Below are positions 5,189 through 45,097 of a stretch of 64,000 bases of DNA, piece by piece. Source of the stretch: Anthostomella pinea (Eukaryota; Ascomycota; Sordariomycetes; Xylariales; Xylariaceae); the NCBI GenBank assembly GCA_963556695.1, contig CAUWAG010000012.1:3534001-3598000 (forward strand), written 5' to 3'. A model generated the notes under the pieces. It made no database searches. It saw only the letters and a list, made by a program, of their open reading frames with translations, and had not been told where the DNA came from. How positions within the stretch are numbered: position 1 is the first letter of the stretch; each line of letters starts with the position of its first letter. The position numbers and the translations under genes are program-made.

Positions 5189-8023
5189 ATGGCATCACCT
5201 GCTGCATTGCTGCAGCGAGCCGTAAGTCAATGCGCTCGACCTCGACCGTCAACTATCCGGGGACCGGGAACCGGGGACAGTGACTGACATTGCTGTAGGC
5301 ACAAGGCTCTGGTAGCAATAGGGGCACCGGGTCAAACTCCGTCTCGGGTATCATCTCAACCCTGGTGCCTGTCGTCATCATCGCCGCCATATCGATCGCG
5401 CTCTTCATCCTTCTGCGCAAGAAGTTCGGGAAAATATACTACCCGAGAAGCGAACAGACGATCTTGAAGGAGAGGTGAGACCACCTGCAAATCCCACAAT
5501 CGCAACGCCACCTGACATGATCCCAGTGACAAGCGAACGCCTCACAAGGATGTAGGCATATTCAGCTGGGTGAGCGATCTCCGCTCGCTGCCAGACGACT
5601 TCGTTCTCCAACGAAACTCCCTCGACGGCTACCTCTTCCTGCGCTTCTTCAAGGTCCTCATCATCATCGCTGGAGCGGGCTGCCTCATCACATGGCCCAT
5701 CTTGTTCCCCGTGAATGCCACTGGCGGTGGTGGCCAGAGCCAGCTTGATGTCATCTCCTTCAGCAACGTCAACAATCCCAACAGGTACTACGCACATACC
5801 TTTGTCGCCTGGATCTACCTCGGCTTCATCACCCTGGTTGTTGCTCGCGAGCGCATGTACTTGATTGGCCTTCGCCAGGCCTACTTCCTGTCAGCCGCCC
5901 GATCCAAGCGACTGCCTTCTCGCACCGTCCTATTCATGGGAATTCCCAAGGACCAGAGATCTGAGAGTTCCATCAGACAGGCCTTGGGTCCAGATGTGCA
6001 GAATGTTTGGATCCCGACCGACTGCAAGGATTTGGAAGAAATCGTCAAGGACCGGACCAAGGCTCACGGAAAGCTAGAGGGCGCCCAGGTCAAGCTGTCC
6101 AAGTTATCGAACAAGAACCGACTGAAGGCCGAGAATGAAGCCGAGAAGAAAGGAAACGCAGAGGAGAATCAGAGACAGGATCCTCTTCACTGGGTCGACA
6201 AAAAAAAGCGACCGACGCACAAACTCAAGTTCCTGATCGGTAAGAAGGTCGACACCATCGAATGGGGCCAGCAAGAACTCCCAAAGCTCAACGAGGAAAT
6301 TCGACGAGAGCAGTCAAAGCACACGCAAGGAAATGCCGAGGTTGTGGGGGCGGCCTTTGTCGAGTTCTCAAGCCAGGGCGCAGCACAGCGTGCGTACCAG
6401 CAGGCGTTGCATGGGAGCAAGAAGAAGGCGTGGAAACCCCGCTACATCGACGTGCAGCCCGACGAGATTATCTGGAAGAACCTCAAGGAGAGTTACCTGA
6501 CCCGCAAGATCAAGCTGACCGTCGCTGCCATCCTTGTGACGTTGACGATCTTGTTCTGGACACCCATCACGGCGTTCGTCGGTGCTCTGACGAACATCAA
6601 CTACCTGACCCAGCAGGTGCCATTCCTCAGCTTCATAACCAAGATTCCAAGTGTGATACTGGGTGTCGTCACTGGTCTCCTACCCACGATCATCCTATCC
6701 GTCTGTGTCATTCTCTTCCCGATCCTCTGTCGACTCCTGGCCAAGATTGCCGGCGAGCCAACCCTGTCGGCCGTTGAACTCAAGACCCAGAACTGGTACA
6801 TGGCCTTCCAGGTTGTCCAGGTCTTTCTCATCACCACATTCGCGTCGGGCGCTTCGGCTGTTGCTGCACAGATCGTGAGCACTCCATCGTCTGCGCCGGG
6901 GTTACTAGCCAAGAACCTTCCTAAGGCATCCAACTTCTACCTCAGCTACTTCATTCTCTACGGTCTCGCGCAAGCTGCCGCTCAGCTTCTGAATATCGTG
7001 CCACTGCTATTGTTTTTGGTACTTGGGAAGTTCCTCGACTCAACCCCGAGGAAAATGTATAACCGCTGGGTCAGCTTGGCGGGTATTGGTTGGGGCTCAG
7101 AGTATCCCAAATGGACCAACTTGGGAGTCATCGCCATCTCGTACTCATGCATTGCACCGCTCATTATGGGGTTCGCCCTCATCGGATTCTCACTGCTCTA
7201 CTTCGCCTTCAGGTACAAGTGGCTGTTCATTCTGGGCAACAAGATTGACATGAAGGGTGAAGCCTACCTGCGCGCCCTGCGGCATTTGATGATAGGCGTG
7301 TACCTATCCAGCATCTGTATGATCGGACTCTTCGCCATTGGTACCAGCGGGAACACTGCCGGGACAGGCCCCCTGGTATTGATGATCATCTTCCTCGTCG
7401 CTGTGATTGTCTTCCACGTCCTGAGCAACAAGGCGCTCGACCCCTTGGAGCAGGGTCTTCCCCTGAGCCATTTCAGTGGGAAGGCCCAGCAGCATGACCA
7501 GGTTGGCGGACCTCACCATGGATCGCAGGACGGCATGGTCCAGAACGGTCACGGCTCTTCGCAGGTGCCCAACGAGAAGTACGTCGGCCACGATCTCGAA
7601 GCCAACCCCAGCGGCAGTCGCAGTCATCCGTCCGGGGACGTGGGCTCCGAGGAGAAGACCGGCAACAAGCTGACGCAGAAGGTGCGCCCTTACATCGACC
7701 GCAAGTTCTACGAACCGAACCGCCAAATGAACTTTGAGCTCCCCGAGGTCAACTACGAGCACAGTGAGGCGTATCACAACCCAGCCCTGGTCGCCAAGGC
7801 GCCGTTCGTCTGGCTCGCGCGCGACGGCTGCGGCGTGAGCAAGAAGATGGTTAGCGACAATCGGGCGGCCGGCATCGCCAGCACGGACGAGTTCGCCTGG
7901 TTCGACGAGAAGAACAAGTTGCACTGGGACCACGATAAGGTCGAGGAGGTCACCACCATGCTGGAAGAGAAGGAGGTTCTTACTGATGGGCGTAAGGAGT
8001 CCTTGGCGGTTTCGCAGAGGTGA
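5189..8023 (+). CDS. CSC1/TMEM63 (RSN1-like) osmosensitive calcium-permeable channel
   Basis: This encodes an integral membrane protein of 901 residues, the usual size for the DUF221/RSN1_7TM family of calcium-permeable, osmotically gated cation channels at the plasma membrane. Exons are 5189-5221, 5299-5474 and 5527-8023. I chose ATG 5189 because exons 1-2 add the conserved first membrane span (STLVPVVIIAAISIALFILL) and the KKFGKIYYPR link. Then come TM1 (FLRFFKVLIIIAGAGC), TM2 (FVAWIYLGFITLVV) and the long cytosolic loop. That loop starts RTVLFMGIPK and has an RRM-like part with a basic-acidic coiled stretch. The seven-span core follows from about residue 325, then the C-terminal cytosolic extension with NPALVAKAPFVWLARD and DEFAWFDEK, typical of the fungal PHM7 extension. 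The frame is intact with clean introns. Activity is inferred from the family. Confidence 0.93.
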
Positions 8024-9107: not shown

Positions 9108-9933
9108 TGATTGATTGATTGATTGATTGTATTTAACGTGAGGGATTGCTCCTCAGTAATGCAAACCACGCCTCCCAGAGCCTCTGCATCGCAGGGTTAT
9201 GGAGGTATCAAGATAATAAGTACAGTCAGCCCCGCTCACGAGCCCATCCCTATTGTTGCAGCTGTATGACTTTAGGGTCATCCATCTGATCCTTTAAGAA
9301 CAGCTATCTATCAGGGACAGATTGATAAAACAAACTTGCTTTTCTTAACAAATCTTGCCCATTCCGCGCTCCTCTCCCCCAAGTATTGTAAACAGGCTGT
9401 CCTAGGCGAGTACCTGGGCAGCAGTCAGTTTTTCCTAAGCCTCTTACAAAAGAAAAGATGTTGTGGTGTTTTCTTCTTACTGTAGTTACAGTGGTCATTC
9501 GAGTCTGTATACCCAAAACGTTCATGATATCTAGCAAAGTCGCCATGTCCAGATCTGGCTGTTAGAAATCTGTGTAGAGTGCTCTTTTAAAGATATAAAG
9601 TCCCTTTTAATTATTGTATGCGAGTATACTTCTTGATACCTAGGTTCTGATTGGTCTTTCTATCATTGATCGAATTCTTTCTTGTTCTTCTTTTTGATAT
9701 CTCTTTTTATCCAAGAGATTGTGGGAAGGTTCGTCGCGTCCGTTTCTAGCATGGCACCCTCTTTTGCTAGTGTGTCAGCAGCTTCGTTGCTATCGATATC
9801 TCTGTGTCCAGGAATCCACTTGACGGTCACTCCAGGAGTGTGTGCTGTGGCGAGTCCTTGGAATTGTAGAAAAATGTTCTGTGATGTCTCGGGTGGAGTC
9901 CTATTGAGCCCATCTACCACTGACGTGTTGTCT
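9108..9933 (-). mobile_element. 5'-truncated Tad1-like LINE, 3' end only
   Basis: Read on the minus strand, this is the last 0.8 kb of the same LINE seen at 10000-15597 and 38931-45073. It starts within the RNase H region (frame 9663-9920, with the motif WIPGHRDIDSNEAADTLAKEGA), runs through the C-terminal zinc-binding part and ends in the conserved 3' UTR. The tail is a TTGA/TCAA tetranucleotide repeat at 9107-9131. Flanking direct repeats mark it as an independent, 5'-truncated insertion, the usual product of incomplete target-primed reverse transcription. Stops follow the RNase H frame (CAA TGA TAG), as in the other copies, so it is non-coding. Confidence 0.85.
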
Positions 9934-9999: not shown

Positions 10000-10142
10000 A
10001 GCCCACAAGCCTCACAAAAACAACTATTTTTCTTGGTGCCCCGCTGTTAGGGCGTAACCTTGATATTTGCACTAAAGCAGGCACTTCTCTCAGTAACTGA
10101 CTATTTCTGCCAAGGCACAAGAGAATTTTTCTCACAAGCCGG

Positions 10143-11720
10143 ATGGCACCCTTCCACGACGGGCCCCCAAACACGCCCGTGGCCGTCCCAAAGACGACCA
10201 CCAGTGGCGTGCTCAAATCCCCGGCCCCTAGAAAGACATACAGCCCGGCAACTCCAAGCAGGCTCCGCCAGGCGCTGCTTGACGACATCAGCAGCAGCCT
10301 GTCACAGGTCTCTGAGGCTGACTTCACCGTTATTTCCCCTCTGAAAGGAAAATTCCGAAACATTAATGACAACAGCACCACTGGAATGAAACAACCTCAA
10401 TTGAACGAAATCTCGACAGACCAAGCCATTATACGCGATATAGAGAATAAAACCTCCTCTTCAGAGTGCCAGGACCAAATTGCCAAAATATTGGCTAAAG
10501 ACAAGCACTTTTATGAAGCCAGGATAACAATGTTTCAAGAGTGTGCTGCAGTGGTTGATAAGACACTTGAGAAAGCTGGAACCGAACTATACTCTCATGC
10601 CAAGGAGTTCAGCGCTTTCTTCTCTAAATGTCTGAACGAGTGGCTGGAAACCCGAGATCCGCCCAAAAGGAAGATCATCCCTGGGGGGATAGGGATGGTA
10701 AAGCCCACCATGACCTTTGTCCAAGCTGTCTCCTTTAGCCAATGACAGCATCCATGGACAGTCAACACTACCATAAAGAAAATACAGCCTGGCACCCGTA
10801 TCACTGCCAACCAACTGAAGAAGAAACAGGATGATCTCCGGGTCTTTGTCCGCATGGATAATAGCCACCTAGAGCCTTACGGAATAAAGTCTACACTGAA
10901 CAGAAGACTTAAGCTCTACCCTTAAGAGCTTAGAGAAGTGACCCGGTGCCCCTCTGGATTTACTTTACACCAAAGGGACAAGCCAACTCAGGCTAAGCTC
11001 CTGGCCTTCTAAGAAGAAATTACCAATATTCTCAAGGCAGAAAAGATCGAGACCCATACAGTCTGGCATCATTATAAGGTTAATGGATGCCCAAGAAAGG
11101 TCATCAGTGCGGAAGGATTGATAATCGACATTACCGACATTGCTGTTACTGATGAAGTTAAAGCCCAAATAAGTGACAGACCTTTAAGGTGCATACTCTC
11201 AAGGAACACAGCTGATTCTGATCTGGAGACCACATGGGTGATCTCTCTGTCCCGTGCAGCAAAGAAACTATTCATGCTCTTTGCTCACTTAATGACCTCA
11301 AGGCACATTCAATACTCCACCAAGGTTCACCAGTGTGCGAGCTGCTTCAGATACCATGGTAGGAACTACCGATGTGAAAAGCAAGTATATGTACGTTGTG
11401 CCAGTACAGTACACCAAGGGGAGTGCGAAAAACCAATCCCAAAGTGTGTCAATTACAAAGGACCTCATGCTGCCAACTTCGACAAATGCCCTGCACGCCC
11501 CAAGGTTGTGAAAGGCATCATCCACAAGCACACATGGGAGCAAATCCAGGAAATAAGGCTGGCTGGAGAAAGAGCCAGATCCAAGGCCTTCAATAAAACA
11601 GGCAGAAACCAAGCTGGGTCAACACCCAACAACAATAACGAAGACATCACAATGCAAATTGACACAACAGATACAACTCATCCCAGAGATGCCGATACCA
11701 TTGTTGTCAGTCAATATTAG
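10143..11720 (+). pseudogene. LINE copy 1 ORF1 (gag-like, zinc knuckle), nonsense-mutated
   Basis: One continuous frame from ATG 10143 to TAG 11718-11720, about 525 codons. It is broken by TGA at 10743, TAA at 10923 and TAA at 11010. At the same points copy 2 has CGA, CAA and CAA, so all three are C-to-T changes. The N-terminal part is Pro/Thr/Ser-rich. The C-terminal part has cysteine-histidine clusters (CASCFRYHGRNYRC, then CEKPIPKCVNYKGPHAANFDKC in shortened form) that fit nucleic-acid-binding knuckles of LINE ORF1 proteins, which coat the RNA. The stop overlaps the start of ORF2 by 7 nt. Confidence 0.85.
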
Positions 11721-14700
11721 GTACATCAAACGGAACACATCGACACGGGCATCTAGTCATCCATTCTGTGAATACAACAGGAGGACAAAAGAGTGCAGGC
11801 CCTACAGAGTTAGCCATCAACCTGGCTGACTACAAAGGAGAACAAGCAGACATCATTCTGATGCAAGAGCCCTGGGTTGGCATACCACCAGGCAGGAGAA
11901 TGGGAGTAAAGACATATCCCAATTATGATATATACTCCCCAGTGGATTCCTGGGACAGCGACAGTACACGGCCCAGATCTCTCATCTATGTAAGAAAATA
12001 CCTTTAAGCGGATCAATTTTGGCCCTATGCTACACGAGACATCACCTGGGTCAAGGTATAAGGCATTATATTTGCCAGTGTCTACCGGCCATGTGACAAC
12101 CCACAGGAAGTGGATGATATTCTGGAAGTATGGATTCCACCTTTTGGCTGCGTTATAGCTGGAGATTTCAATGCTGGCGACACATCCTGGGACTCGAGCA
12201 ATCCAGGATATCATAGTGGTGTCATACTTGCACAGACTATGACAGACCACGGACTGGATCTGATTTCTGAACCAGATGTCCCAACACATGATGACAGAAA
12301 TGTACTAGATCTGGTGTTCTCAGATGTCCCCATGGCCGAAGCCTCAGTGAATGATGCACTCCAGTGCACCTCAAATCATGAGACATTACAAATAGTCATT
12401 CTAATTCAGGGAGATCTGGACCGAATCCCTAAGGCCAATCATTGGATAGTACCGGACGATAAACTACAAGAGCTGGCAGATAATGTCTAAACCAGGATTC
12501 ATGAACTCCCCTGGCTGGGTGTATCCCCTGGCCAGGTAGATGCCTTTATACAAAGCTTGATCAACATGATCCAAGGCTGTATCAGAACAGTGGGCAAGAA
12601 GCCCCGTCAATCTAGGCCCACTGCTTGGTGGAATGATGACTACAAAGCAGCTGTTTAGACATACAGGGCCCTTTCTAAACAGACTACAAGCCAAGAAGGG
12701 CGGAATTCAGCCCGACGGGAATTTCGCCGCGTGGTTCAGAAAGCTAGGAGAGAGTACTAGCAGACTTTAATTGATTCAGCAACTGAGCCAAAGGACCTAT
12801 ACAGAATCGTCTCTTGGCACAAGCTATCAGCAGGATTGCGTTCCCCTCCAATCATCATAAGAGACCAAATATTCGAGTCATAAGAGAGCAAGGCAAATGC
12901 ATTACGCTCAGCCACGCTTGAACGAAATACCTCAGATAACGATATCATCGACCCCTGGTCCGTTCAGATCACACAACCCAAGCCATACATCCCCCTTGAA
13001 TACCATGTCGGACTGGAAGAGGCTGAAGGGTGCACTTTAGGGACCAAGAGCAACTCCCCGGGAATAGATACCCTCACAGTACGGATTCTGAAAGCTTGCT
13101 GGCCATTCATTGGGGAACATATCAGAGCCCTTTTCCAGACCTGTCTACAGATTGGACACCACCCTAACCATTCAAAGTAGCTGAGGTAGTGATGATCCCA
13201 AAACCAGGAAAGAAAGACTACTCTAATCCCAGGGCCTACAGACAAATATCACTATTGTCGTGTCTTGGCAAAGGCCCAGAACGACTCATCGCAAAAAGAA
13301 TTACTTGGTTTGTTATCAAACTTGGAATTCTAGCTCCACAACATTTTGGAGCTCTACCAAGCGCTCTGCCACTGACCTGGTAGCTGCACTCATACACGAT
13401 ATTGAGCAGGCCCTCGACCAAGGCCTCGTTGTAACAGTAGTCACGTCAGATGTGAAAGGGGCCTTTGATACTGCCCTAATGGGACGGCTGGTGGTTCGCA
13501 TGAGAGAATAGGGCTGGCCGGGCTTTCTCATAAGATGGGTCCAGTCATTCATGTCCGAGCGGTCCGCAAGGGTTTGGTTTGAAGGTATTGTGACCGATAT
13601 TAAAGCTCTCACTTGTGGGCTACCACAAGGCTCACCAGCCTCTCTAATCCTTTACATGCTGTATACAGAGCCAATCTGTGACTGACTTGGTATGAAAAAG
13701 AGACGCTTTGGATATGCAGACGACCTAGCAACTCTCTGTATTGGAAAGAACCTTGAAGAAACAGCTACAGAGGCTTCTGAAAATCTTCATTTGCTTAACC
13801 AATAGGGACACAATAATGCTATTAAGTTTGACCCTGACAAAACCGAGATTATGCACTTCTCGCGGAAAAAGAACTCAGACAACCCTCCAGTCCGTCACGG
13901 GACAATGAACAAAATAGCTAAGCATTCTATGCGATGGTTAGGTGTCCTTCTGGATAGAAAACTAAACTTCAAAGTTCATGTTTCTCACTGGGCCAAGAAA
14001 GCTAGTAGGGTAGCAAATCACCTTTGAGGATTATGCAACACAGTCAAGTGACTCCCAGTAAAATCAACCAGGAGGGCTGTGAAAGCTTGTGTTATTCCTA
14101 TTCTTACACACGGCCTGGAGACCTGGTACCCAGGAATCAAAAAAATCAGGAGCTCAGGTGAGACATCAGCATGTCGCATTAAGGGGCTTCTTGGGACAAT
14201 AGATGCTGTACTACGAACGGCGATCAGGGCTATCTTGCCAGTCTGGAAAACACACCCTGGGCATATCCTACATTTTGAATCGCAGATTCCCCCAGCTGGA
14301 GTTCTTGCAGAGTCAATACGACGACGTCACGGCCTTCGACTAGGACAAATAGACCAGAGACACCCTCTTGTTAGCAGGCTCCAAATACAAGCCCGCAAGG
14401 ATCGAACAAGGCTACAAAGGAGCTTCCAGCTAGTCCCTGACTTCCAGAGACCAACACTTACCAGGCCATCATGGAAGAAATCCCCAATCCGTAAAGGCAA
14501 AGACAAAAAAACAGAGCTCTTTAAGCAATGGCTACAGGAGAGAAACGTGAACACTGACCTTGTCATCTATTCAGATGGATCACAGTTGGACGACCAAGGC
14601 ACAACCCGCACTGGATGGGGTTATACTATCAGGAAAGGCGGCACTACACAAGAAATATACCGGGGAAAAGGCAGACTTCTCTAAGCAGAAGTAATAGATG

Positions 14701-15404
14701 CTGAAGTCCATGGTGCTCTCTAAGGTCTTGCAGCAGCCAGGGCAATTGGACGCAGAAAACGGCTATATGTCTGCCTGGACAACACGTCAGTGGTAGATGG
14801 GCTCAATAGCACTCCACCCGAGACATCACAGAACATTTTTTTACGGTTTCAAGAACTTACCACAGCACACACCCCTGGAGTGACCGTCAAGTGGATTCCT
14901 GGACACAGAGATATTGATGGCAACGAAGCTGTCGACATACTAGCAAAAGAGGGTGCCATGCTAGAAACAGACACGATAAATCTTCCTATAATCTCTTGGG
15001 TCAAGAAAGATCTCAAAAAAAAGGGCAAAAAAGAGTTCAACTAATAGTAAAAAGACCAATCAGAACCTAGGTATCAAGAAGTATACTCACATACAGTAAC
15101 TAAAAGAGACCTTATATCTTTTAAGAGAAGTACTTTACACAGACTTCTAGCGGCCAGATCTAGACATGGCGACTTTGCCAGATATTATGAACGCTTTGGG
15201 CATACAGACTCGAATGATCACTACAGCTGTGGTGAGAAGAAAACACCACAATATATTTTCTTTTGTAAGAGGCTGGGGAAAAATCAGCTGCTGCCCAGGT
15301 ACTCGCCTAGGACAGACTGTTTACAATACTTAGGGGAGAGGAGCACAGAATGGGCAAAATTCGTGGAGAAGAGCAAGTTCTTTTCAATAATTTGTCCCCG
15401 ATAG
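11714..15404 (+). pseudogene. LINE copy 1 ORF2 (endonuclease / reverse transcriptase / RNase H), inactivated
   Basis: The start at 11714 is ATA here but ATG in copy 2 (43388). Endonuclease: ADIILMQEPW, VIAGDFNAGD and a SNH at 12371-12379 where copy 2 has the expected SDH, a loss of the catalytic Asp by G-to-A. Reverse transcriptase: LTCGLPQGSP and the YADD active site (FGYADDLATL). RNase H: IYSDGSQ, an Glu helix, LDNTSVVDGL and GHRDIDGNEA, the DEDD set. C-terminus: a Cys/His group around YSCGEKKTPQYIFFC. The frame moves from 2 to 1 near 13170 and from 1 to 0 near 13356, each explained by one missing base. Further stops (for example TAG in MRE*GWPG at 13509) match Gln or Trp codons in copy 2. 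Confidence 0.88.
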
Positions 15405-15607
15405 ATAGCTTTTCTTGAAGGCCCAGATGGATGACCCCAAGGTCATACCGCCGCAACAACGGGGATGGGCCCGTGAGCGGGGCTGACTGTACTTATTATC
15501 TTGAGACCTCCACAACCCTGCGATGCAGAGGCTCTGGGAGGCGTGGTTTGCACTACTGAGGAGCTACCCCCCACGTTAAATACAATCAATCAATCAAACA
15601 GTACTAC

Positions 15608-16074: not shown

Positions 16075-16080
16075 CATTCC

Positions 16081-16168
16081 TCCCACGGCGAGATTTGAAC
16101 TCGCAGCTTTTGGATTTCTCACAGGTTGCCCTAAAAGTCCAACACGCTAACCATTGCGTCACGCGGGA
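16081..16168 (-). tRNA. tRNA-Lys(TTT), with a 16-nt intron
   Basis: On the minus strand an 88-nt sequence folds as a cloverleaf. The acceptor stem TCCCGCG pairs with CGTGGGA, the D stem ACGC with GCGT around AATGGTTA, and the anticodon stem TTGGA with TCCAA. The T stem GCGAG pairs with CTCGC around TTCAAAT. The anticodon loop reads CTTTTA, then 16 extra bases, then A. That places an intron at the canonical 37/38 site and gives anticodon TTT. Mature length is 72 nt before CCA. A and B boxes are present. The isotype rests on where the intron is cut, so Lys is likely but not certain. Confidence 0.82.
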
Positions 16169-38915: not shown

Positions 38916-38930
38916 TGCATGCTGTCACAT
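38916..38930. repeat. Target-site duplication of LINE copy 2 (left copy)
   Basis: tgcatgctgtcacat occurs here and at 45074-45088, exactly bracketing the element. Confidence 0.85.
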
Positions 38931-41069
38931 GTTTGTTTGTTTTGTATTTAACGTGGGGGGTAGCTCCTCAGTAGTGCAAACCACGCCTCCCAGAGCCTCT
39001 GTATCGCAGGGTTGTGGAGGTCTCAAGATAATAAGTACAGTCAGACCCGCTCACGGGCCCATCCCCGTTGTTGCGGCGGTATGACCTTGGGGTCATCCAT
39101 CTGGTCCTTTAAGAACAGCTATCTATGGGAGACAGATTGTTAAAAAGAACTTGCTCTTCTCCACGAATTTTGCCCATTTTGTGCTCCTCTCCCCTAAGTA
39201 TTGTAAACAGGCTGTCTTAGGCGAGTACCTAGGCAATAACCGATTTTTTCCTAGCCTCTTATAAAAGAAAATATGTTATGGTGTTTTTTTTTCCACCACA
39301 GCTGCAGTGGTTGTTCGAGTCTGTATGCCCAAAGCGTTCATGGTATCTGGCAAAGTCGCCATGTCCAGATCTGGCCGCTAAAAGTCTGTGTAGAGTGCTC
39401 CTCTTAAAGGATATAAGGCCTCTTTCAGTTATTGTATGTGAGTATACTTCTTGATACCTAGGTTCTGATTGGTCTTTTTACCATTAGTTGAACTCTTTCT
39501 TGCCCTTTCTCTTGAGATCTCTCTTAATCCAAGAGATTATAGGAAGGTTTGTTGTGTCTGTTTCTAGCATAGCACCCTCTTTTGCTAATATATCGGCAGC
39601 TTCGTTATCATCAATATCTCTGTGTCCAGGAATCCACTTGACGGTCACTCCAGGAGTGTGTGCTGTGGCGAGTTCTTGGAATCGCAGAAAAATTTTCTGT
39701 GATGTCTCGGGTGGAGTCCCATTGAGCCCATCCACCACTGATGTGTTGTCCAGGCAGACATATAGCTGTTTTCCGTGTCCAATTGCCCTGGCTGTTACAA
39801 GACCTTAGAGAGCACCATAGACTTCAGCATCCACTACTTCTGCTTATAGAAGTCTGCCCCTTCCCCGGTATACTTCTTGTGTAGTGCCGCCTTTCCTGAT
39901 GGTATAGCCCCATCCAGTGCGGGTTGTGCCTTGGTCGTCCAATTGTGATCCATCTGAATAGATAACAAGATCAGTGTTTACATTTCTTTCCTATAGCCAT
40001 TGCTTAAAGAGGTCTGTTTCTTTGTCTTTGTCTTTACAGACTGGGGGCTTCTTCAATAATGACTTGGTGAGTATTGGTCTCTGGAAGTCAGGGACTAGTT
40101 GGAAGCTCCTTTGTAGCCTTGTTGGTTCTTTGCGAGCTTGTATTTGGAGCCTGCCAACAAGAGGGTGTCTCTGATCTACTCATCCGAGTCGGAGGCCGTG
40201 ACGTCTTCTTATTGACTCTGCAAGAATTCCTGCTGGAGGAATCTGTGATTCAAAGTATAGGATATGTCCAGGGTGTGTTTTCCAGACTGGCAAGATAGCT
40301 CTGATTGTCGTTTGTAGTACAGCATCTATCGTTCTAAGAAGCCCTTTAATGCGACATGCTGATGTCTCACCTAAGCTCTCAGCTTTCTCGATTCCTGGGT
40401 ACCAGGCCTCTAGGCCATGTGTGAGAATAGGAATAACACAAGCTTTCACAGCCCTCTTGGTTGACTTTACTGGAAGTCCTTTGACTGTGTTGCATAGTCC
40501 TCGAAGGTGATTTGCTACCCTACTAGCTTTCTTGGCCCAGTGAGAAACATGGTCTTTGAAGTTTAGTTTCCTATCCAGAAGGACACCTAGCCATCGCATG
40601 GAATGCTTAGCTGTTTTGTTCATTATTCTGTGGCAAACTGGGGGATTGTCTGAGTTCTTTTTCCGTGAGAAGTGCATGGTCTCGGTTTTGTCGGGATCAA
40701 ATTCAATAGCATTGTTATGTCCCCATTGGTTGAGTAAATGAAGGTTTTCAGAAGCCTCTGTAGTTGTTTCTTTAAGGTTCTTTCCAATGCAGAGTGTTGC
40801 TAGGTCATCTGCATATCCAAAGCGTCTTCTTTTCATGCCAAGTCGGGCACAGATTGGCTCTGTATACAGCATGTAGAGGATTGGAGAGATTGGTGAGCCT
40901 TGTGGGAGCCCACAAGTGAGAGCTTTTATATCGGTCACAGTACCTTCAAACCGAACTCTTGCGGACCGCTCGGACATGAACGACTGGACCCATCTTATGA
41001 GAAAGCCTGGCCAGCCCTGTTCTCTCATGCGAACCACCAGCCGTCCCATTAGGGCAGCATCAAAGGCCC

Positions 41070-41084
41070 CTTTCACATCTGATG
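41070..41084. repeat. Target-site duplication of the SINE (left copy)
   Basis: ctttcacatctgatg occurs here and at 41644-41658. Copy 1 of the LINE has this stretch once (near 13447-13461 on the other strand), which shows the uninterrupted state. Confidence 0.9.
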
Positions 41085-41091
41085 GGCCGTA

Positions 41092-41102
41092 TGGCGCAAT
41101 GG
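41092..41102 (+). promoter_or_regulatory. Pol III A box of the SINE
   Basis: TGGCGCAATGG fits the internal A-box consensus TGGCNNAGTGG with one change, at the expected place in the tRNA-like head. Confidence 0.7.
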
Positions 41103-41155
41103 TCAAATGCGCCTGGTTGTGTTCTCGTTTGTGCGGTGGGCGACGAGAACAAGTG

Positions 41156-41166
41156 GGTTCGAATCC
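41156..41166 (+). promoter_or_regulatory. Pol III B box of the SINE
   Basis: GGTTCGAATCC is a perfect B box (GGTTCGANNCC), 53 bp after the A box, lying in the T-arm-like hairpin. Confidence 0.8.
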
Positions 41167-43381
41167 TGCTATGGCCCCCTTTCTGACCCGGCTTGTGCGA
41201 GTCGATAACCAGCACACGACAGTGGAGAGGCCCCATTTATCGCAGAGCCCGATAGCCAAGCAGCTTGTCTCCACAATACCCACTCCTGCGAGGTTTTCCC
41301 CCTTGTGGTTTCCCTCGCCAGCAGATAACAAACACCTACTCCACTCACCAATGCGACATATATCGAACGGCTACTGGAACGATATGTACACCAGAGAACT
41401 GAGGTTCACTGGGTCGCTTTGTCACTAGATAGGAGGTTTTTCTGACGGAATCGTGTTTGGGTATTGACTAAAACCATCTGAACACTACAGATTGGTACCG
41501 CTACAGCGAGGATAGGCTCGTGCGCGGATCTGAATGTATCTAATTTGACACCTCTACAACCTTGCGATGCAATGGCTCTGGGAGGCGTGGTTTGCACTAC
41601 TGAGGAGCTACCCCCCACGTTAAATACAAAACAAACAAAACAACTTTCACATCTGATGTGACTACCGTTGCAACGAGGCCTTGGTCAAGGGCCTGCTCAA
41701 TATCGTGTATGAGTGCAGCTACCAGGTCAGTGGCAGAGCGCTTGGTAGAGCTCCAAAATGTTGTGGAGCTAGAATTCCAAGTTTGATAACAAACCAAGTA
41801 ATTCTTTTTGCGATGAGTCGTTCTGGGCCTTTGCCAAGACACGACAATAGTGATATTTGTCTGTAGGCCCTGGGATTAGAGTAGTCTTTCTTTCCTGGTT
41901 TTGGGATCATCACTACCTCAGCTACTTTGAATGGTTAGGGTGGTGTCCAATCTGTAGACAGGTCTGGAAAAGGGCTCTGATATGTTCACCAATGACTGGC
42001 CAGCAAGTTTTCAGAATCCATACTATGAGGGTATCTACTCCCGGGGAGTTGCTCTTGGTTCCTAAAGTGCACCCTTCAGCCTCTTCCAGTCCGACGTGGT
42101 ATTCAAGGGGGATGTGTGGCTTGGGTTGTATGATCTGAACGGACCAGGGGTCGATGATATCGTTGTCTGAGGTACTTCGTTCAAGCGTGGCTGAGCGTAA
42201 TGCATTTGCCTTGCTCTCTTATGACTCGAATATTTGGTCTCCTATGATGATTGGAGGGGAACGCAATCCTGCTGATAACTTGTGCCAAGAGACGATTCTG
42301 TATAGGTCCTTTGGCTCAGTTGCTGAATTGATTAGAGTCTGCCAGTACTCTCTCCTAGCTTTCCGAACCACGCCGCGAAATTCCCGTCGGGCTGAATTCC
42401 GTCCTTCTTGGCTTGTAGTCTGTTTGGAAAGGGCCCTGTATGTCTGAATAGCTGCTTTGCAGTCATCATTCCATCAAGCAGTGGGCCTAGATTGACGGGG
42501 CCTCTTGCCCACTGTCCTAATACAGCCTTGGATCATGTTGATCAGGCTTTGTGTAAAGGTGTCCACCTGGCTAGGGGATACACCCAGCCGGGGGAGTTCA
42601 TGAATCCTGGTTTGGACATTATCTGCCAGCTCCTGTAGTTTATCGTCCGGTACTATCCAATGATTGGCCTTGGGTACTCGGTCCAGATCTCCCTGGATTG
42701 GAATGACTATTCGTAATGTCTCATGATCTGAGGTGCACTGAAGTACATCATTGACTGAGGCTTCAGCCATGGGGACATCAGAGAACACCAGATCTAGTAC
42801 ATTTCTGTCATCATGTGTCGGGACATCTGGTTCAGAAATCAGATCCAGTCCGTGGTCTGCCATAATTTGTGCAAGTATAGCACCACCATGATATCCTGGA
42901 TTGCTTGAGTCCCAGGATGTGTCGCCAGCATTGAAATCTCCAGCTATAACGCAGCCAAAAGGTGGAGTCCATACTTCCAGAATGTTATCCACTTCCTGTG
43001 GGTTGTCACATGGCCGGTAGACACTGACAAATGTAATGCCTTGTACCTTGACCCAGGTGATGTCTCGTGTAGCATAGGGCCGAAGTTGATCCGCTTGAAG
43101 GTATTTTCTCACATAGATGAGAGATCTGGGCCGTGTACTGTCGCTGTCCCAGGAATCCACTGGGGAGTATATATTATAATTGGGATATGTCTTTACTCCC
43201 ATTCTCCTGCCTGGTGGTATGCCAACCCAGGGCTCTTGCATCAGAATGATGTCTGCTTGTTCTCCTTTGTAGTCAGCCAGGTTGATGGCTAACTCTGTAG
43301 GGCCTGCACTCTTTTGTCCTCCTGTTGTATTCACAGAATGGATGACTAGATGCCCGTGTCGATGTGTTCCGTTTGATGTAC

Positions 43382-44958
43382 CTAACATTGACTGACAACA
43401 ATGGTATCGGCATCTCTGGGATGAGTTGTATCTGTTGTGTCAATTTGCATTGTGATGTCTTCGTTATTGTTGTTGGGTGTTGACCCAGCTTGGTTTCTGC
43501 CTGCTTCATTGAAGGCCTTGGATCTGGCTCTTTCCCCGGCTAGCCTTATTTCCTGGATTTGCTCCCATGTGTGCTTATGGATGGTACCTTTCACAACCTT
43601 GGGGCGGGCAGGGCATTTATTGAAATTGGCAGCATGAGGTCCTTTGCAGTTGACACACTTTGGGATTGGTTTTTCGCACTCTCCCTGGTGTACTGTGTTG
43701 GCGCAGTGTGCACATACTTGCTTTTCGCATCAGTAATTCCTACCATGGTATCTAAAGCAGCTTGCACACTAGTGAACCTTGGGGGTGTGTTAAATATGCC
43801 TTGAGGTCATTAAGTGGACAAAAGCGTGAATGGTTTCCTTGCTGCACTGGGCAGAGAGATTATCCACGTGGTTTCTGGATCAGAATCAGTCGTGTTCTTT
43901 GAGAGTATGTACCTCAGAGGTCTGTCGCCTGTTTGGGCTTCAACTTTATCGGCAACAACAGTGTCAGTAATATCGATTATGAACCCTTCTGTACTGATGA
44001 CCTTTCTTGGGCATCTATCGACCTTGTAATGATGCCAGACTGTGTGGGTCTCAATCTTTTGTGCCTTGAGAATGTCGGCAATTTCTTCTTGGAAAGCCAG
44101 AAGCTTAGCCTGAGTTGGCTTGTTCTTTGGGTGTAAGGTAAATCCAGAAGGACACCGTGTCACTTCTCTAAGCTCTTGAGGGTGGAGCTTAAGTCTTCTG
44201 TTTAGTGTAGACTTGATTCCATAAGGCTCAAGGTAGCTATTATCCATATGGACAAAAACCCGGAGATCATCCTGTTTCCTTTTTAATTGGTTGATAGTGA
44301 TAAGGGCACTAGGCTGTGTTTTCTTTATGGTAGTGTTGACTATCCATGGATGCTGTCGTTGGCCAGAGGAGACAGCTTGGGCGAAGGTCATGGTGGGCTT
44401 CTCTATTTCTATCCCCCCAGAAGTGGCCTTTTTTATGGTCAGATCTCGGGTTTCCAGCCACTCATTCAGACATTTGGAGAAGAAAGTGCTGAACTCCTTG
44501 GCATGAGAGTATAGTTCGGTTCCAGCTTTCTCAAGTGTCTTATCGACTGCTGCAGCACACTCCTGAAACATTGTCATCCTAGCTTCATAGAGATGCTTGT
44601 CTTTAGCCAATATTTTGGCAACTTGGTCCTGGCACTCTGAAGAGGAGACTTTGTTCCTTGTATCACCTCTAATGGCTTGGTCTGTAGGGATTTCGCTTGA
44701 CTGAGGTAATTCCATATCAATGGTGCTGCTATTAATGATATTTCGGGATTTTCCTTTCAGAGGGGAAACAGTGGTGAAGTCAGCCTCAGAGACCTGTGAC
44801 GGGCTGCTGTTGATGTCGTCGAGCAGTGCCTGGCGGAGCCTGCTTGGGGTTGCCGGGTCATGTGTTCTTTTAGGGACTGGGGATTTGAACATGCCGCCAG
44901 TAGTCGTCTTTGGGACGGCCACTGGCGTGTTTGGGGGCCTGTCGTGAAAGGGTGCCAT
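43382..44958 (-). pseudogene. LINE copy 2 ORF1 (gag-like), frameshifted
   Basis: Starts at ATG 44958 (MAPFHDRPPNTPVAV) and is open to 43810, where one base change of length shifts the frame. The correct frame resumes for the cysteine-knuckle part and ends at TAG 43382-43384. The codons that are stops in copy 1 are CGA, CAA and CAA here. At the ORF1 end the sequence ATGTTAG holds both the ORF2 start (ATG 43388) and the ORF1 stop (TAG). Confidence 0.82.
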
Positions 44959-45097
44959 CCAGCTTGTGAGAAAATTTTTCTGCGCCTTGGCAAGGATAGT
45001 CAGGTACTGAGACAAATGCCTGCTTTAGTGCAGATATAGAGGTTGCGCCCTAACAGCGGGGCGCCAAGAAAAGTGCATGCTGTCACATACCTGGACA

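Follow-up and report, generated by a model that had tools for sequence, protein, structure and literature searches.

A tRNA-headed SINE inside a LINE copy of Anthostomella pinea: a shared 3' end and a possible later exchange of its terminus

The SINE and the LINE copies in the window

The window, a stretch of 64,000 nucleotides from the genome of Anthostomella pinea, holds a complete tRNA-headed SINE that lies antisense inside a LINE copy. One protein encoded in the window matches a protein of this member of the Xylariales with 100% identity. The enclosing LINE copy (38931..45073, reverse strand) is slightly short at its 5' end, has broken frames and an (AAAC)n tail, and is bounded by perfect target site duplications of 15 bp (38916..38930 and 45074..45088). 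Open pieces of its frames are left on the reverse strand, namely 404 codons of ORF1 (43813..45024), 321 codons of ORF2 with the endonuclease (42477..43439; Pfam PF14529 and PF03372) and 295 codons of ORF2 with the reverse transcriptase, running up to the SINE (40183..41067; Pfam PF00078). A search of solved structures with this reverse transcriptase piece gave no match, and a search of a phage collection gave none either. Two further LINE copies in the window carry (AATC)n tails: one on the forward strand (10015..15585), 91.9% identical to an intact copy, and one on the reverse strand (9127..9932), truncated at its 5' end. A tRNA-Lys gene (58.2 bits) is also found in the window at 16080-16168.

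The SINE occupies 559 bases on the forward strand (41085..41643), and its insertion site is the reverse transcriptase region of the enclosing LINE. A preliminary description had noticed perfect 15-bp duplications around it, and these are indeed present as CTTTCACATCTGATG at 41070..41084 and 41644..41658. It had also described a head with A and B boxes. This head (41085..41179) is called as a tRNA by ARAGORN, and the Rfam tRNA model matches it with 28.2 bits (E 9e-4), below the cut-off of 29. The A box TGGCGCAATGG (41092..41102) and the B box GGTTCGAATCC (41156..41166) were named by matching what we take to be the consensus of these elements. The following body of about 320 bases (41180..41497) matches none of the LINE copies in the window; it includes a T4 run (41294-41297) and a T5 run (41437-41441), at which RNA polymerase III could stop early, a point against full transcription of the SINE by this enzyme. 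The LINE-related tail comprises 130 bases (41498..41627, SINE bases 414-543), as judged from alignment to the enclosing LINE, and is followed by a repeat of the AAAC type (41628..41643). The terminal 32 bases of this tail (41596..41627) are identical to the enclosing LINE and coincide with the densest difference between two SINE end types, A and B, of which the window copy has type A.

The SINE and LINE families across the genome

The SINE, about 0.55 kb long, is a family. A 35-base word of its body occurs at 241 places in the genome (up to 3 mismatches) and a reversed control word at 0, so that the repetition is beyond chance, and the copies have one head-body-tail layout; the idea of a single-copy element thus fails. 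At least 40 near full-length copies are 99-100% identical. Target site duplications of 10-17 bp were detected by an automatic rule in 44 of 57 copies examined, as against 3 of 3192 control pairings of flanks from different copies; eight duplicate loci and tail-only matches had been removed beforehand, and the flank table for the same copies has 59 rows, in which L147 and L148 repeat L028 and L032. Among the 13 copies without a duplication, L124 and L134 have little flank. The Pol III-type boxes in the head, together with many dispersed copies with such varied duplications, mark the element as a tRNA-derived SINE. Of the 57 copies, 15 have a match that begins internally, including L111 and L118, which are internal deletions, and L135, which is broken by a LINE. 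Six copies that start internally (L025, L033, L020, L113, L073 and L110) still have duplications, which fits target-primed reverse transcription. A pyrimidine precedes the nick at 39 of 44 SINE sites and 10 of 12 LINE sites, a preference that gives weak support because the procedure for extending duplications eliminates A, and C in part, from this position.

The 42 full-length SINE copies aligned below were selected to contain the tail. In 30 loci chosen by the body word alone (22 examined as such and eight being the same places as L001-L008), the shared tail reaches query base 540 or beyond in all 30. The tail is thus part of the SINE unit, which disposes of the alternative that a LINE end was later inserted into an unrelated sequence.

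Some features of individual SINE copies are worth recording. Among the copies with tabulated flanks, four lie inside LINE copies: the window copy, L003 and L083 in the LINE 3' UTR, and L020 in ORF1. L003 (contig 16) and L083 (contig 2) occupy the same 3' UTR site, LINE 5493-5506, in different LINE copies, and this site is a possible insertion hotspot. The reverse of the window arrangement, a LINE copy antisense inside a SINE, is found at L096/L135 (contig 4). The copies L025, L033 and L040 begin at nearly one base, 245-246, where the reverse transcriptase may tend to stop or jump. Both L111 and L118 are without unit bases 52 to 108, with the junction at a word of some 7 bases that is repeated, and they may represent a deleted SINE subfamily.

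The LINE family includes intact copies with long open frames. One copy of 5.6 kb (L146) has an ORF1 of 547 codons and an ORF2 of 1255 codons, both measured stop-to-stop, and its ORF2 has endonuclease, reverse transcriptase and RNase H domains. Among 509 candidate reverse transcriptase matches, 133 were scored, and 24 of these 133 lie in open frames of at least 1254 codons with no stop inside the match. The preliminary description saw the SINE as sitting inside its likely helper. The position inside a LINE copy stands, but the enclosing copy with its broken frames is not itself the helper; the long frames are in other copies. Duplications of 11-17 bp (mean 14) were found in 12 of 17 long-frame LINE copies, counted without control pairing, and the other five gave none. 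The closest protein found for the LINE belongs to Neoarthrinium moseri, with 67% across 68% of the length, and the next is at about 40%. The closest named proteins are fungal and none is named Tad1. ORF1 (547 codons) had no match in Pfam; CCHC-like motifs were seen in it by eye. An ORF1 followed by an ORF2 with endonuclease, reverse transcriptase and RNase H is the set described for Tad1 elements in the accessible part of a published account (PMC5063351), and the LINE, which has this layout, may belong to the Tad1 clade.

A second LINE subfamily, with ORF1 76-80% identical, gave 11 matches on contigs 2, 3, 4, 5, 7, 9, 10 and 14; six of the 11 lie 4-6 kb from exact LINE-type ends, judging from coordinates alone. 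In addition, tandem LINE ends occur at L043, L049 and L078, where one end directly adjoins part of another.

The shared 3' end and its two forms

The SINE and a LINE of the same genome have a common 3' end, as the preliminary description had claimed, and SINE tails align with the LINE 3' UTR. In the alignment of the window SINE (bases 414-543) with the 3' end of the enclosing LINE, 114 of 133 columns are identical. All 19 differences fall in the first 79 columns and the last 54 are identical. Counted over the last 52 columns and the other 81, the differences are 0 and 19 (P 3e-5). The same comparison for L109, a copy with the type B end, gave 10 and 20 (P 0.3), so that type B diverges evenly from the LINE end.

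A 47-base word of the shared end occurs at 530 places in the genome (up to 3 mismatches). When 20 exact places were fetched, all from contig 2 and outside the set of SINE copies known by then, 17 were LINE ends and 3 were SINE copies; the tails of the 17 LINE ends are AATC in 7 and AAAC in 10. LINE-type ends with AATC occur at 123 places in the genome. Moreover, 20 LINE ends from long-frame copies all have AAAC tails and a run of five Cs (CTACCCCCACG). This run has six Cs in type A SINEs and in most other LINE copies seen, which indicates that the exact donor of the type A end was not the youngest LINE.

Two structural candidates in the shared end were considered, and neither gained support. 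Folding revealed no stable stem-loop common to the ends, which folded no better than shuffles (z-scores of -0.5 to +1.0 for five ends). The words CGTGG/CCACG are pairable in all 10 distinct ends; however, the pattern used for collecting the ends already required most of the stem and the pairs never vary. A preQ1 match in the tail (18.3 bits, cut-off 39) was taken as chance.

It is evident from the 42 aligned SINE copies that there are two end types: 18 have type A, with the LINE-like end, and 24 have type B. The tail repeat is AAAC in all 18 type A copies; among type B copies it is AATC in 21 and AAAC in 2, and one is not readable. In the genome, the type B end occurs at 173 places (up to 3 mismatches) and the type B end with AAAC at 15 places. 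The majority sequences of A and B differ at 29 of 543 bases. Nine of these differences are within the last 32 bases (P 1e-5), where 7 of the 9 sites are fixed in these 42 copies, and the other 20 are outside. Among the latter, three neighboring sites, 459-461, are unexplained by the LINE. Just upstream of the changed part, B and the LINE have 22 bases in common, GGCTCTGGGAGGCGTGGTTTGC.

On average, A and B with (AATC)n tails diverge by 22.6% in bases 506-543, as against 5.2% in bases 414-505, 7.1% in the body and 1.2% in the head. The mean body divergence is 1.5% within A and 6.5% within B with (AATC)n tails, the value for A being understated since resemblance to the window copy was part of how its copies were chosen. 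In the tree of bases 1-505 alone, that is, without the tail end, type A forms one clade (support 100/98). The two B copies with AAAC share a half of this midpoint-rooted tree with A, and that half is weakly supported. As for the base changes in the B copies, repeat-induced point mutation of the classic CpA pattern was rejected: 82 of 116 singletons are C:G to T:A, but 17 of these 82 are in CpA context, compared with 83 of 292 available sites.

A LINE with the type B end was sought with a pattern of the LINE bases upstream plus B, and none was found at the stringency used. The 61 places matched (up to 2 mismatches) are 57 SINE copies and 4 LINE copies with an A-like end, according to the matched letters. 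Similarly, 20 of 49 exact type B places, drawn from the ones that had not yet been recognized as SINE copies, comprised 19 SINE copies and one tail-only piece (L122), with no LINE.

Origin of the type A terminus and its meaning

Judging from these sequences, it is likely that the SINE has been moved by the enzymes of the LINE via the shared end, and that the terminus of type A was later swapped for that of the LINE and then spread recently. RNA polymerase III, directed by the A and B boxes, would make the SINE RNA. Roughly the last 50 bases, together with the tail repeat, may be what the LINE protein binds before it primes copying at the nick. The SINE would first have acquired some 130 bases from the end of an ancestral LINE and then drifted, giving type B, and the tail repeat of both SINE and LINE may have shifted from AATC to AAAC. 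A single lineage would then have received the sequence of the LINE in place of its last 32 or so bases, through a template jump or gene conversion. In such a jump, the reverse transcriptase would presumably have passed from LINE RNA to SINE RNA within a stretch still common to B and the LINE, and the 22 common bases upstream of the change would suit it. The refreshed lineage, type A including the window copy, would be the most recent spreader. Regarding the more specific proposal that a drifted SINE lineage was re-armed in one event, in which a jump replaced only the terminal 32 or so bases once the tail repeat had, in the wake of the LINE, gone from (AATC)n to (AAAC)n, and that this lineage made the latest burst, we are modestly inclined to accept it.

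There may have been no swap at all, if type A has retained the original LINE-derived end under selection for recognition by the LINE and B either decayed or went over to a different LINE that has since been lost. In favor of this, none of the LINEs found here matches a B end, conservation of the last 54 columns would be expected if they are the recognized part, midpoint rooting does not fix the position of the root, and the 20 differences elsewhere in the unit tell that the two lineages diverged in an ordinary way too. Such a history, however, does not readily account for the fact that B, A and the LINE agree just upstream, yet A and B differ most densely, and mostly by fixed sites, in the last 32 bases. 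B is also the more diverse type with two tail repeats, and its AAAC copies stand near A, albeit in the weakly supported part of the tree. We thus regard it as rather unlikely, though a real competitor to a terminal swap.

It is more doubtful still that a different LINE moves the SINE and that the tail match is a mere relic of the SINE's origin. Sequence likeness by itself does not show use, and one C separates the intact LINE from the SINE in the shared end; on the other hand, SINE and LINE have the same duplication sizes and tail repeats, and the least diverged SINE copies are those closest to the LINE end. The full-unit identity between some SINE copies could even suggest segmental or DNA-level duplication without retrotransposition, but most copies examined differ in their flanks and duplications, tail lengths vary and 5' truncations occur, which makes this origin very hard to credit. 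The preferred reading remains movement by the LINE's enzymes with a later swap of the type A terminus, and the preliminary interpretation of a SINE carrying the 3' end of its LINE is supported as far as sequence can tell.

Shared-tail SINE/LINE pairs are well known. In the eel pair UnaSINE1/UnaL2, which has a shared 3' end as in A. pinea, the LINE reverse transcriptase reportedly uses this end, as shown by experiment, while its use in A. pinea is inferred. The preliminary description expected a clear fungal case. The pair itself is borne out, but it is not the first of its kind, since fungal pairs, one of them with a Tad1 LINE, are in print. In the accessible part of a review, which also cites the eel pair, a table lists two, Mg-SINE/MgL and SINE2-1_BG/Tad1-24_BG (PMC3747384). 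The latter, from Blumeria graminis, resembles our pair by description as an ascomycete SINE with a tRNA promoter and a 3' end in common with a Tad1 LINE, though it is from another species and that part of the review makes no mention of a terminal swap (PMC3747384). Mg-SINE of Magnaporthe is likewise a fungal tRNA SINE with a listed LINE partner (PMC3747384). Template switching among the RNAs of MGL, Mg-SINE and a third kind is reported to have produced chimeras in Magnaporthe; in the portion of that report available, these are chimeric retrogenes, whereas a spreading SINE subfamily would have arisen from a terminal swap in A. pinea (PMC2104539). In Aspergillus fumigatus, according to the available part of the report, the 3' end of AfuSINE2-1a resembles the 3' UTR of the Tad LINE I-1_AF, AfuSINE2_4c adjoins a LINE reverse transcriptase, and LINE-like copies are mostly not intact, in contrast to the many long frames and near-identical SINEs of A. 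pinea (PMC5063351).

Related cases are known outside fungi. As described in the accessible part of the source, marsupial CORE-SINEs have one SINE body with differing LINE tails, read as recombination; these tails come from different LINE types, whereas in A. pinea about 32 terminal bases would have been updated to match the same LINE family (PMC3403934). In cyprinid fish, four HAmo SINE subfamilies and their LINE are reported, in the part consulted, to have an almost identical 42-bp tail (PMC2873951). Our literature searches on tail exchange, with subscription papers mostly outside their reach, found no terminal-only refresh, and searches on this subject and on A. pinea found no report of this SINE family. 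The main text of the A. pinea genome paper gave 0 hits for SINE, retrotranspos- and transposable. Thus, the SINE/LINE pair itself is of a known kind, and the terminal refresh is the interesting part.

Finally, the choice of RNA by a LINE protein has, to our knowledge, been settled by experiment in few systems, and we know of no fungal one. Long-frame LINEs, near-identical SINEs and two end types in one genome make a natural substrate pair for finding the bases that matter. If the proposed history is true, the re-armed SINE lineage would be a natural gain-of-function test of the bases read by a fungal LINE protein. Moreover, the terminal exchange suggests how a parasite may keep pace with a changing helper.
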